From NCBI GenBank assembly GCA_014055525.1, contig WIAH01000011.1, positions 62,001-126,000 on the forward strand: a stretch of 64,000 bases of DNA, read 5' to 3'. This DNA is from Nitrospira sp. CR1.3. GTDB taxonomy: Bacteria; Nitrospirota; Nitrospiria; Nitrospirales; Nitrospiraceae. The notes below the pieces were generated by a model. That model had not been told where the DNA came from and did no database searches. It saw nothing but the letters and a program-made list of their open reading frames with translations. Both the position numbers and the translations under genes were made by a program. Shown here in pieces: positions 26,744 through 30,552 of the stretch (its first letter is position 1; every line of letters begins with the position of its first letter).

Positions 26744-28174
26744 ATGACGAACGAACTTCCGCTCCTTTCGCCGGACAAATTCCACGACGAGTGCGCCGTG
26801 TTCGGCATCTATGGACACGAGGAGGCTGCCAACCTGACCTATCTCGGCCTCTATGCGCTTCAGCATCGCGGACAGGAGGCTTCAGGCATCGTTTCTGGAG
26901 ACGGCGACCAGTTCTTCATGCAAAAGGGCATGGGGCTTGTGGCCGACATCTACAATAAGTCGGTATTGGAGAAGCTGCCGGGGCACATGGCTATCGGGCA
27001 TAATCGCTATTCGACCGCCGGAGGCCACGACCTCAAGAACGTGCAGCCGTTGATCGTGAACTTCGCCTTCGGCAACCTGGCCTTGGCGCACAACGGGAAT
27101 TTGATCAATGCGCAGGTGTTGCGCAACGAGTTGGAGGCGTACGGCGCGATTTTTCAATCGACCTCCGACAGCGAAGTCATCATCCATCTGATCGCCCATT
27201 CACGGGCCGATACGTTTCTCGCTCGCGTCATTGATTCCTTGAGCCAGGTTCGCGGCGCGTTTTCCGTGGTGCTGATGACGGACAACGGCTTGATCGCCGC
27301 GCGGGATCCGCACGGGTTGCGGCCGCTCTGTATCGGGAGATTCAGAAGCAGCTGGATTGTGGCGTCGGAGACCTGCGCTTTCGATCTGCTGGATGCCGAA
27401 TATGTCCGGGAAGTCGAGCCGGGCGAACTGGTCGTCCTCAACGATCAAGGGCTGGAGAGCCATCATCCTTTCGCCAAAGTCGATCCGGCGATGTGCGTCT
27501 TCGAGTATGTGTATTTCGCCAGACCGGACAGCAAGATCTACGGCGCCAATGCGGTCTATTCCACACGCAAAGCGCTGGGGAGGCAACTGGCGCAGGAGTC
27601 CTGGGTGCCCGCCGATATCGTGATTCCTGTTCCCGACTCCGGCGTGCCGGCCGCGTTGGGATATGCCGAGGGAGGCGGAATCAGGTTCGAGACTGGATTG
27701 ATCCGCAACCACTATGTCGGGCGGACCTTCATCGAGCCGGAGCAATCAATCCGGCATTTCGGCGTGAAGGTCAAGCTGAACGCCGTGCCGGAAGTGTTGG
27801 AGGGAAAGCGCGTCGTGGTGGTGGACGACTCCCTGGTGCGGGGCACCACCAGCCGGAAAATTGTGAAGATGATTCGCCAGGCCGGCGCCAAAGAGGTCCA
27901 CGTGCGGATCAGTTCCCCGCCGATCATTTCACCCTGCTTCTACGGCATCGACACACCGACTAAGAAGGAACTGATCGCCTCGAGTCATTCGACCGAGGAG
28001 ATTCGAAAATACATTACGGCGGACAGTCTCGCCTACTTGAGCCTCGAAGGCATGCTGAAGTCCGCCCCCGGCTCTCCCACTCAGTATTGCAGCGCCTGTT
28101 TCACCGAAAAGTATCCCATCTCGTTTACCCGGGCCGAAGAGTTGCAGCTCGGGCTGTTCGAATCCTCTACATAG
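26744..28174 (+). CDS. purF: Amidophosphoribosyltransferase
   Basis: A 476-residue enzyme for the first committed step of purine synthesis. The N-terminal Ntn-glutaminase has its nucleophile cysteine in [10 protein letters not shown]; about 16 residues before it would be removed as a propeptide. The PRPP-binding loop is [16 protein letters not shown]. Cysteines in [19 protein letters not shown] and QYCSACF match the four ligands of the iron-sulfur cluster in the Bacillus-type enzyme, so this is the Fe-S form. Shine-Dalgarno is weak. It closes the purine run. Confidence 0.95.
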
Positions 28175-28299
28175 CTCATCTCCTCCCCGGCTCTGTTGGT
28201 TCTAGGCCTCGCATCAACAGGTTTGCGGCCTCTCTCGCTCCACAATATCCCGAAAAATCACGCCACTCTGCGATCGATCACTCCCAAAGTAGGGGATAG

Positions 28300-28321
28300 G
28301 CCAGCTTTTAGGGAGCTAGGC
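28300..28321 (+). other. Hairpin in the leader region upstream of the PqqD/HprK pair
   Basis: gccagct and agctaggc flank tttaggg with one bulge. The surrounding 28175-28343 has no gene and no riboswitch that I recognise; it is the candidate leader of the downstream genes. Function unknown. Confidence 0.3.
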
Positions 28322-28343
28322 ATAACCAAGAGAGAGTACTACT

Positions 28344-28400
28344 GTGACGGTCAACACGGAGGCTGAGAGCGACCTGCCATGTGGTGTGGATCCAGACTGA
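28344..28400 (+). CDS. Possible 18-residue peptide upstream of the PqqD-like gene
   Basis: GTG at 28344, preceded 8 bp upstream by agagag, opens an 18-codon frame (MTVNTEAESDLPCGVDPD) that stops at 28400. It contains one cysteine and is acidic. Its place just before a PqqD-like peptide-binding protein and an HprK-like kinase makes a modified peptide conceivable, but length, weak start and lack of comparison leave it very uncertain. It could equally be a chance frame. Confidence 0.2.
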   Translation: MTVNTEAESDLPCGVDPD

Positions 28401-28513
28401 CCGACCAGTCAGCCTCTTGGCCGCAACCGTTCAGCGTCCCTGATGCAGATACCGATTGCCCCGAGAAATCCGTCCCGCCGACGCAGGAGCCTGATGCTGC
28501 ACATTGGGGCAAG

Positions 28514-28789
28514 ATGATGCGTCTGATGCCGGCCAGAAATCCCCTTGTTCAAGGGGTGCCGATGGAAGGCGACACGATCCTCTTCGACCTCCGAACCGGT
28601 CGTCTGCATCGACTCAATTCTCTCGGAACGGCGATCTGGGAGCAATGCACGGGTAGCGCCACGCTTCACGAAATTCACCGCGCGATTTGCGCGCGAACGG
28701 GGCTGTCATCCGATCGCGCCCATGACGGCGTCGTGTCGTTCATCTCGCAATGGAGCCACGAAGGACTGCTTTCTTCAGATACGGTCTGA
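28514..28789 (+). CDS. PqqD-family peptide-binding protein
   Basis: About 91 residues: NPLVQGVPMEGDTILFDLRTGRLHRLNSLGTAIWEQCTG, then a three-helix end, the typical PqqD or RiPP-recognition-element fold. Such proteins bind leader peptides and present them to modifying enzymes. An ATG at 28379 would add 45 Pro/Asp-rich residues without recognisable fold; ATG 28514 with upstream gggg is preferred but not certain. The next gene is an HprK-like kinase, a pairing I know from the so-called HPr-rel-A gene set, whose function is not established. Confidence 0.75.
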   Translation: MMRLMPARNPLVQGVPMEGDTILFDLRTGRLHRLNSLGTAIWEQCTGSATLHEIHRAICARTGLSSDRAHDGVVSFISQWSHEGLLSSDTV

Positions 28790-28855
28790 TCGATTGCAAA
28801 TTTTGGGATGACCGGGAAACGGGTCTGCCCACGAACGTTGACGGCGCAAACGAGC

Positions 28856-29881
28856 ATGACGACGACGGCAAATCTCCACGAGCATCGGTTTTCTTTCCAC
28901 GGTCTCGATCTGCGCTATCGCACATCCATGCCGTCGTTGCTCTCGTCCGCAACAGCCTGGGGCGTCTATTCCCAACGGGACATGCCGGATGCGGGCAGCC
29001 AGCTGACGATTCACTTCGAAGAAGTGCCCGATCGCCGGGCGGTGCCCGTCTCGCTGTCGTCTTCCGCTCGACGGCTGTTTTCGGGGACGAGGCCTGTCTT
29101 GGGGAACTCGATGAGAGCACTCTGGCATTGCGAGATTCTCGAAGACGGCGGCAGGCTTCTCGTGGACGTGCGGGGCCAGGGAGTGCTCATGATCGATGCG
29201 CAACGAGGCAACGCGCAGGGATATTTCTTTCGCCCCTCAGCCATGCACCGAGACTCATTGGACATGTATTTCCGGTACGCCTTGTCAGAACTGCTGAGGC
29301 CGAAGAACATTTTTGCACTCGATTCGACCGCGCTCGAACTTCACGGTCGGGGGGTGCTGATTGCCGGACACAGCGGCTGTGGAAAGACGACCGCCTTGCT
29401 GTCGTTGCTTCGATCCGGGTATCGATACCTGTCGGACGACACTTCGTTGCTATGGGATAGAGGCGCCGGAATGGAAGTGCTCGCGTTTCCGGCGACGATC
29501 GAGGTTGCGGATCGGACAGTCGCCTTTTTCCCGGAACTTCGCGATGCTTCACCGAGTCCGCTGCGCCAGGGAATCTACAAGAAATCATTTCACGCGGAGG
29601 AAATCTATCCGGTCACAGGGGCTCGGTCATGCGAGCCGACGATGATTCTGTTTCCCCAGGTGACCAACATGCCGCATAGCTGCCTTGAGCCGCTGTCAAA
29701 GGGCCATGCGCTCGAAGCCTTGATGCCGCAGCCATCGTTCTTTCAAAACGAGGAACTCGCGAAACGGGAATTTCTGGCGCTCTCAAGGTTGGTGCAGCGG
29801 AGCGCCTCCTATCGTTTGCATTTCGGACTAGATGTGCTGGATCTACCCAGTCTGATTACTCCCCTCGTTGAACGTCACTAA
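28856..29881 (+). CDS. HPr kinase-related P-loop protein
   Basis: A protein of about 341 residues with a poorly conserved N-terminal half and, from about residue 160, an HprK/PEPCK-like core: Walker A GHSGCGKTT (about 169-177) followed by YRYLSDDTSLLW, matching the conserved acidic segment of HPr kinase. True HprK has a different N-terminal domain and a CxxH-like signature not seen here. Paired with a PqqD-like protein it probably phosphorylates a peptide or small protein other than HPr. ATG 28808 is an alternative start giving 16 extra residues. The substrate is unknown. Confidence 0.75.
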   Translation: MTTTANLHEHRFSFHGLDLRYRTSMPSLLSSATAWGVYSQRDMPDAGSQLTIHFEEVPDRRAVPVSLSSSARRLFSGTRPVLGNSMRALWHCEILEDGGRLLVDVRGQGVLMIDAQRGNAQGYFFRPSAMHRDSLDMYFRYALSELLRPKNIFALDSTALELHGRGVLIAGHSGCGKTTALLSLLRSGYRYLSDDTSLLWDRGAGMEVLAFPATIEVADRTVAFFPELRDASPSPLRQGIYKKSFHAEEIYPVTGARSCEPTMILFPQVTNMPHSCLEPLSKGHALEALMPQPSFFQNEELAKREFLALSRLVQRSASYRLHFGLDVLDLPSLITPLVERH

Positions 29882-30018
29882 CCCTTCAACCGACTCTTCG
29901 GAAAACTTCGCCCCATCCGGTGGAATCGCGGGAGCCATCGCGCCGGCCGTTGCCCCTGAAAAAATCTGCATGGTAGGATAGCGCCATCGCTCTCTTAGGT
30001 TCTAGGAAGGAGGCCGTC

Positions 30019-30552
30019 ATGAAGCGTGTTGTCTTCATACTATGTTCCGTAGTCGCCCCGCTGGTGGCCGTCCATTTGGTCCTGGCGGCGGGATTTTTTA
30101 AAGTGGGTGAGAAGGCGCCTGGTTTCACGCTGAATGCCATTACGGGTGAAACGGTCGGTCTCGAGACACATAAGGGAAAAGTGGTGGTGCTGGGGCTTTT
30201 TCACATTTGCGATCCCTGCATGATGCAAGGAACCAACCTCCAGAAGGTATTTGAGTCGACGAAGGGCAAGAATGTCGCGGTGATCGGGGTGAATTCGGCG
30301 GGCAATTCCAAGAAAGATGTCGGAGAATTTCTCTCGGCATTTCCCGTCAAGATCACCTATCCCTATCTCCTGGACCCGGGAAAAGTGACCGACAAACTCT
30401 ACGGCGGCGGAAAATTTATCCCCAACGTGTATGTCATCGATCAGGAAGGTGTGATCCGTTGGCAGCGTGTCGGGAACATGGAGTTGGCCGGAGCGGATGT
30501 GATCACGGCGGAAGTGGATAAATTGCTGGCCGGATCGAGTAATAAGATGTAG
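30019..30552 (+). CDS. Exported thioredoxin-fold protein (TlpA/AhpC-TSA type)
   Basis: A 177-residue protein with a signal peptide (about 1-24). The mature part begins KVGEKAPGFTLNAITGETV and has the active-site motif CDPC (Cys64 and Cys67), then a typical TlpA-like core with FIPNVYVIDQEGVIRWQRVG. It should act as a periplasmic thiol-disulfide reductase, perhaps in cytochrome c maturation. The Shine-Dalgarno aaggagg is strong. It is a single gene or the head of the following group. Confidence 0.82.
   Translation: MKRVVFILCSVVAPLVAVHLVLAAGFFKVGEKAPGFTLNAITGETVGLETHKGKVVVLGLFHICDPCMMQGTNLQKVFESTKGKNVAVIGVNSAGNSKKDVGEFLSAFPVKITYPYLLDPGKVTDKLYGGGKFIPNVYVIDQEGVIRWQRVGNMELAGADVITAEVDKLLAGSSNKM

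Follow-up and report, generated by a model that had tools for sequence, protein, structure and literature searches.

What do a PqqD-like protein and an HprK-related kinase act on when they are encoded side by side with no evident precursor peptide? The question is raised by a locus of Nitrospira sp. CR1.3, within a stretch of 64,000 nucleotides that we refer to as the window. A first-pass annotation had noted that such a pairing is known from the HPr-rel-A gene set and suggested that it might modify a small peptide, possibly the product of an 18-codon frame just upstream. Comparison with related genomes points to another answer: with a probability that we put at about two in three, the window pair is the reduced remainder of a lasso-like phosphopeptide cassette that had no cyclase, and has probably been put to a new use.

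The gene pair between purF and tlpA

The locus comprises four consecutive genes, all on the forward strand. The gene purF (26744..28174; TIGR01134, 546 bits) is its upstream anchor and a TlpA/ResA-like redoxin gene (30019..30552; PF00578, 66.3 bits) its downstream anchor, and between them lie the genes for a PqqD-like protein (28379..28789) and for a kinase-like protein of HprK/PEPCK fold (28808..29881), the latter identified by profile scores, homology, and a predicted-fold match. The tandem reported earlier is thus real, as both frames are open, the first matches PF05402 at 48.5 bits (Pfam cut-off, 23.4), and the second matches the HPr kinase fold. Ahead of the redoxin gene, at 29946-29981, a short stretch translates as VAPEKICMVG, and VAPEKxxxxG recurs ahead of the relatives' tlpA-like gene; this stretch may be another promoter (TTGCCC, TAGGAT) rather than a peptide.

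The peptide-recognition domain of the PqqD-like protein spans residues 66 to 131, and its N-terminal extension is also present in the nearest relative, L058, with 50% identity from the same start, MWCG. Under the NCBIfam models for lasso PqqD proteins, it scores below the cut-offs (31.7 of 80 and 25.7 of 70). Where relatives have RYY[TS]LN, the window protein reads RLHRLN; the motif [RH]YY[TS]LN, which we take to be leader contacting, occurs in 38 of 38 other PqqD copies found by pattern and in none of the three copies from the window's clade. A true PQQ role was considered and is probably not the explanation, since the second PqqD of this genome, on contig C35, sits in a run of ORFs that we presume, from sequence and order, to be pqqB, C, D, and E.

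The kinase-like protein falls below the Pfam cut-off for Hpr_kinase_C (27.6 versus 33.3 bits). In an AlphaFold2 model (30 rows, mean pLDDT of 81.6, pTM of 0.81), it has the HprK/PEPCK kinase fold: modeled residues 167 to 357 match HPr kinase 1ko7 (Z 13.9, rmsd 2.4, 132 aligned; 1kkl was also matched), and residues 19 to 357 match PEP carboxykinases, the best being 2pc9 (Z 14.5, rmsd 4.9, 282 aligned). Homology with relatives starts near residue 14 to 20, which makes the ATG at 28856 a candidate for the true start. The P-loop GHSGCGKTT (29366-29392) and the DD motif (29435-29440) are kept, and a conserved His is replaced by Asp at 29321-29323.

The relatives' cassette and its precursor peptide

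Strong kinase matches (E < 1e-16) were found in 43 of 98 family genomes, the window genome included, and weak matches in 7 further genomes of the 98; 45 loci were compared. A purF-family ORF recurs at 30 of these 45 loci, as does a tlpA-family ORF, so not every cassette sits between these genes or is seen whole. A precursor gene is present in 35 of the 98 genomes, all of them among the 43 with a strong kinase match. The eight strong-kinase genomes without a precursor are seven from the window's clade and G082, which has a fragment with stops. The precursor gene usually lies between pqqD and the kinase gene, and a small-ORF search placed it downstream of the kinase gene at L063 and L064. Across 175 family genomes, the precursor profile matches in 64, with one to five matches each. 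A small peptide as the target of such a pair therefore fits the family, where 35 of 43 genomes encode a precursor, and does not fit the window, where the proposed frame lies in a predicted promoter and no precursor matches.

The precursors are approximately 33 to 60 amino acids long and consist of a lasso-type leader, Y(-17)xxP(-14)...T(-2), followed by a variable core. An alignment of 34 peptides, taken from 49 leader-like ones, has six invariant residues (Y, P, H, R, D, and T), Y and P by construction because members were chosen by the YxxP pattern. A recount without the YxxP condition yielded 58 leader-like peptides from 35 of the 45 loci, with P(-14) in 58 of 58, Y(-17) in 57, and T(-2) in all 58, the last nearly by construction, as the selection used a leader motif resembling HxLLRD[VI]T. 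Their cores carry Ser3 (26 peptides), Ser4 (22), Tyr3 (9), or none of these (1). A PqqD/HprK-type pair thereby gains a concrete candidate substrate, a peptide family with a Ser/Tyr3 or Ser4 core in 57 of 58 members.

This precursor family appears to be undescribed. Against NCBIfam, 2 of 34 precursors touch lasso_cyano (best E of 0.011) and 2 of 34 touch rhodolasso (0.08); against Pfam, four families are touched by one member each, with E values of at least 0.034. None of the titles found in our literature searches, which covered non-subscription papers, describes a PqqD/HprK precursor cassette, and the string "nitrospir" is absent from PMC7470986, PMC8939145, and PMC10368454. When 84,980 species' genomes were scanned with the pattern [KA]HELLRD[IV]T, 39 loci were returned, every one titled Nitrospira, Nitrospiraceae, or Nitrospirae, and "Candidatus Nitrospira defluvii" proved to carry the cassette peptide gene; a single exact pattern may miss wider relatives.

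Common neighbor families were typed on single representatives. They include a fatty-acid-hydroxylase family protein and, in one representative cluster, NTP_transf_5 (205 bits) and a Transglut_core3/lasso B2 family (Transglut_core3, 68.9; lasso_biosyn_B2, 46.1 with a cut-off of 33). Some cassettes adjoin what we take, from its sequence, to be an ABC transporter. One branch of relatives has a pair of ATP-grasp genes ahead of pqqD; the 299-amino-acid product of one reaches 124 bits against TIGR04187 and 89.5 against MvdD, below the respective cut-offs of 350 and 475; this branch is possibly a lasso-leader/graspetide hybrid. At L059 and L063 to L067, where the two ATP-grasp maturase-like genes lie upstream of pqqD, Lys/Glu-rich cores (QKYREK...) are frequent. 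The PqqD proteins of L059, L063 to L065, and L067 have a long N-terminal extension with RQPFIT, which the window protein partly echoes as PQPFS.

No lasso-type cyclase was seen beside the cassette: of 20 genomes searched for Asn-synthase matches, 12 have the cassette, and none of these 12 gave a match less than 20 kb away from it. Weak matches lie approximately 26 to 27 kb from the cassette in three genomes, and the G061 cassette is near a contig end. As a control, neighboring genes at another site in genome G090 encode B2, Asn synthase, NTP_transf_5, and a YxxP peptide, together with two ORFs presumed from sequence to be PqqD-like and kinase-like. This lasso-type cluster (L206:3000-10500, on contig C303) also has a methyltransferase-like ORF and a peptide ending in ...YATPTLVEYGDIAKLTQGNPTGMFGDGASGMFMSTACL, and G090 carries a lone kinase as well.

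From the gene content, co-occurrence, leader register, and promoter conservation observed here, a chemistry for the cassette can be inferred by analogy with BsfK/BsfB1 and with pseudomycoidin. PMC10368454 describes how the kinase BsfK, with strong stimulation from the PqqD-like protein BsfB1, places a phosphate on Ser3 of BsfA, a lasso precursor; pseudomycoidin is covered in a review (PMC8498205). By this analogy, the full cassette most likely phosphorylates its precursor near the core start, with PqqD as the guide and B2 cleaving the leader. The ancestral cassette of Nitrospira-type genomes, mostly located between purF and tlpA, would serve peptide maturation. Its PqqD-like protein would bind the lasso-type leader and present the precursor to the HprK-like kinase, which would phosphorylate a hydroxyl residue near the core start (Ser3, Ser4, or possibly Tyr3), after which a B2-type peptidase would cut the leader off after T-x. 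The phosphate may be extended by the NTP_transf_5 enzyme, and some clusters may in addition rely on an ABC transporter or a pair of ATP-grasp ligases. In the window lineage, which is without precursor, peptidase, nucleotidyltransferase, and ATP-grasps, the promoter, pqqD, and the kinase gene would be what remains, and in genus g9 the kinase would remain without PqqD. Two properties of the model enzyme fit this scheme poorly, as given in PMC10368454: BsfK is strict for position 3 and leaves a Tyr3 variant unphosphorylated, a mismatch with the Ser4 and Tyr3 cores, and swaps at Y(-17), P(-14), and L(-12) did not stop its activity.

A probable shared promoter and a precursor-less clade

Relatives share a conserved DNA block of approximately 90 bp upstream of the cassette. 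A model of it (R1), built from 16 loci, gave 35 matches in 26 of 175 family genomes. A second search over 30 sources also gave 35, of which 34 were common to both; the second G132 match was not among these sources, and a weak second L076 match was added. Of the 35 sequences, 16 are those that built the model. The 34 complete matches (an incomplete one, L109, is not counted) contain a TAGGCA-like hexamer (26 exact), a 17-nt spacer, and TANNNT, with T1, A2, and T6 each in 34 of 34. The columns of the first hexamer carry 1.74 bits of information on average and those of the spacer 0.64, with 2.00 bits at positions 1, 2, and 6 of the second hexamer. Given the constant spacer and the TANNNT hexamer, our reading is that the block combines a promoter and, upstream of it, another conserved site. 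In the window, the predicted promoter (28317..28345, forward strand) has a -35 hexamer TAGGCA at 28317-28322 and, after the 17-nt spacer, a -10 hexamer TACTGT at 28340-28345. The upstream block at 28285..28316 on the same strand (CAAAGTAGGGG...GCTTTTAGGGAGC), which is kept in the R1 matches, is a possible regulator-binding site or operator. A generic promoter scan reported none at this locus, in our opinion because its threshold demands hexamers closer to the consensus.

In 34 of the 35 matches, the opening gene of the cassette, be it ATP-grasp, pqqD, or kinase, starts 42 to 159 nt past the match (extrapolated); the exception, L110, is among the weakest matches. At the search sensitivity used, the window genome has one copy. 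Two copies per cluster occur at L063, L064, L074, and L076 and in G143, G158, G118, and G132, which suggests a dedicated regulator; where the arrangement was read, one copy precedes the ATP-grasp pair and the other pqqD.

A folded leader, which had been proposed upstream of the pair, did not hold up. The region 28175-28378 folds no better than its shuffles (z = +1.61; 196 of 200 shuffles fold equally well or better), 28352-28513 gives z = -0.39, and Rfam has no match in the leader region. A structured RNA leader was also rejected at the level of the alignment: RNAalifold found 0 pairs in the first 16 sequences, ribosum scoring gave a weak three-way junction, and pairs counted by hand over 33 distinct rows (2 of 35 dropped for gaps) were not convincingly above 1,000 shuffles, the best being equaled by 15 and the next by 59, 87, and 111.

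The seven precursor-less kinases (window, L058, L054, L055, L060, L061, and L062) form one clade with support of 100/99 (midpoint root), adjoining the ATP-grasp type in the kinase tree; the kinase of L058 is 61 to 62% identical to that of the window. L054 and L055 begin shortly upstream of the kinase at contig ends, and with their upstream context partly unseen, absence there is judged from genome searches. The window genome (G000; 92.65% complete, 35 contigs) yields no match to the precursor profile (best E of 0.099), and no precursor with a YxxPxL leader and penultimate Thr was found at its locus. Searches of the same genome found no nucleotidyltransferase N (NTP_transf_5, PF14907), no B2 leader peptidase (NF033537), and no ATP-grasp maturase. 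No Asn-synthase cyclase lies beside the locus, the four PF00733 matches of the genome being on C5, C13, and C29 and not on C2. Two other genomes, G040 and G045, both incomplete, likewise gave no precursor, NTP_transf_5, B2, or ATP-grasp-maturase match. In G090, the lasso cluster supplies matches to both NTP_transf_5 and B2; distant matches to NTP_transf_5 occur in the remaining g9 genomes that were searched.

Catalytic residues have changed in the same clade. An eight-residue kinase motif, HGGGKTDD, occurs in 39 of 45 kinases, namely all 38 outside the clade and L058; the window has DGGGKTDD, L054 has PGGGKTDD, and the four g9 loci have YGGGRTDD, so that within the seven-member clade the catalytic His is absent in six and the P-loop Lys in four. 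At alignment column 232 (E232 in the window), six of the seven precursor-less kinases have Glu and all other kinases Asn or Asp. In the PDB alignment, this column corresponds to a Glu of HPr kinase, Glu204 by our own count. The Glu in six of seven kinases indicates that the active site of the clade has been remodeled and not merely eroded.

Nonetheless, kinase frames are stop-free in all seven clade genomes, the promoter is kept ahead of the kinase gene or pqqD in members of two genera, and kinase dN/dS is 0.15 to 0.31 for six pairs from the window's clade versus 0.07 to 0.20 for six cassette pairs (NG86, few pairs, with three pairs missing or without dS). The kept promoter, the open frames, and purifying selection argue that the kinase retains some role, and the altered motifs of kinase and PqqD suggest that this role is no longer the original one. 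Thus, with the kinase under selection and the leader-binding and catalytic motifs changed, the pair, or at least the kinase, appears to have been kept for another purpose, one that no longer involves the cassette peptide. Several observations pull against this reading. The neighbors are under tighter constraint than the kinase (dN/dS of 0.014 to 0.055 for purF and 0.064 to 0.110 for tlpA), and PqqD has a dN/dS of 0.447 for the window/L058 pair versus 0.10 to 0.21 in the comparison, so part of the pair may be decaying. In addition, L058 belongs to the same clade and retains the full catalytic motif, and the window copy retains the P-loop Lys and both Asp residues. Incompleteness of the window genome also means that an assembly gap may hold a precursor, and the L054 and L055 sequences are cut by contig ends.

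Alternatively, the pair may be a slowly decaying relic with no function left. We regard this as unlikely given the intact kinase frames, the kinase dN/dS, and the promoter kept in two genera, even though most of the cassette is gone, the PqqD ratio is high, catalytic residues have been lost in most of the clade, and PqqD was not found at four g9 loci, of which one is truncated where its contig ends. It is improbable that the window pair still phosphorylates a precursor encoded elsewhere that is too diverged for the profile or falls in an assembly gap. Very short genes are easily overlooked, and a gap could hide one in a genome that is 92.65% complete in 35 contigs; the intact P-loop and DD motif of the window kinase would fit. 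However, partner genes went unmatched along with the precursor in three incomplete genomes, and the PqqD motif and catalytic His of the window are altered.

The 18-codon frame at 28344..28400 (forward strand) exists mechanically as VTVNTEAESDLPCGVDPD, with one Cys, but very probably does not correspond to a gene. The GTG at 28344-28346 begins within the -10 hexamer, which is conserved; transcripts of the predicted promoter would accordingly start past this codon. This GTG is present at all six precursor-less loci where it is visible (window, L058, L055, L060, L061, and L062), and all the frames that it opens except that of L058 are 18 or 19 codons long with a single Cys, but the sequence conservation across species that the first-pass annotation proposed as a check is missing. 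The L058 frame has 58 codons and shares residues with the window only across the overlap with the pqqD start, and those of the four g9 relatives (L055, L060, L061, and L062; 18, 19, 18, and 18 codons; VPACPLRLLQAKGSMDME and kin, with the pattern V[PS][AD]CPLRLL...) are alike among themselves and unlike the window frame. The g9 frames are probably not translated. In the two pairs compared, codon changes are mostly nonsynonymous (five, with one synonymous, between L061 and L062; four, with none synonymous, between L061 and L055). The g9 frames leave a small chance for a lineage-specific peptide. That this frame, without a lasso-type leader, encodes the substrate in the window lineage is therefore very improbable.

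As a more tentative and broader proposal, the full cassettes could represent an undescribed RiPP class that combines lasso-type leader recognition, a peptidase, a kinase, and a nucleotidyltransferase, is never threaded, and is sometimes cross-linked by ATP-grasp enzymes; the window-lineage kinase, without peptide and catalytic His and under the same promoter, could now be a substrate-free nucleotide-binding regulator. The natural series from full cassette to kinase plus PqqD to kinase alone, found in relatives of the nitrite oxidizer Nitrospira defluvii, asks what role a peptide kinase takes on after its peptide is lost.

Comparison with known systems

The locus resembles the HPr-rel-A gene set in having an HprK-related kinase adjacent to a PqqD-like protein, but membership is not borne out: the window kinase scores 44.4 versus a cut-off of 200 (TIGR04352) and the PqqD-like protein 21.1 versus 35 (TIGR04353), and a cassette kinase, that of L070, also falls short (65.1 of 200). 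The window kinase is like HPr(Ser) kinase/phosphorylase in its modeled fold (1ko7, 1kkl), P-loop, and DD motif and differs in scoring 32 bits with TIGR00679 (cut-off, 240) and in the His-to-Asp change. The relatives' two ATP-grasp genes and many Lys/Glu-rich cores recall graspetides (MvdC/MvdD, TIGR04187), whereas the subthreshold scores, the lasso-type leader, and the HprK-like kinase set that branch apart, and the window genome has no ATP-grasp-maturase match at all.

Phosphorylated lasso clusters offer a further comparison. According to PMC10368454 and PMC8498205, these clusters (bsf of Bradymonas sediminis, paeninodin, and pseudomycoidin) encode a PqqD-like B1, a B2 peptidase, an HprK-like kinase K, and a nucleotidyltransferase N, the last absent from some of them (PMC10368454). 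The relatives' cassette differs in having no Asn-synthase match within 20 kb in the 12 genomes searched, and the window differs also by its missing precursor, B2, and N. The window locus does have the PqqD/RRE protein B1, by its PF05402 match, and its kinase reads D-G-G-G-K-T-D-D where phosphorylated lasso clusters have H-G-G-G-K-S/T-D-D. PMC10368454 prints the BsfK motif as H-G-G-G-K-S-D-D, with Ser sixth, and reports activity loss of varying degree upon Ala swaps at H148, G163, K169, S170, D186, and D187. The published BsfA leader carries YxxPxL at -17 to -12 (PMC10368454), and the same register is found in the precursors of the relatives.
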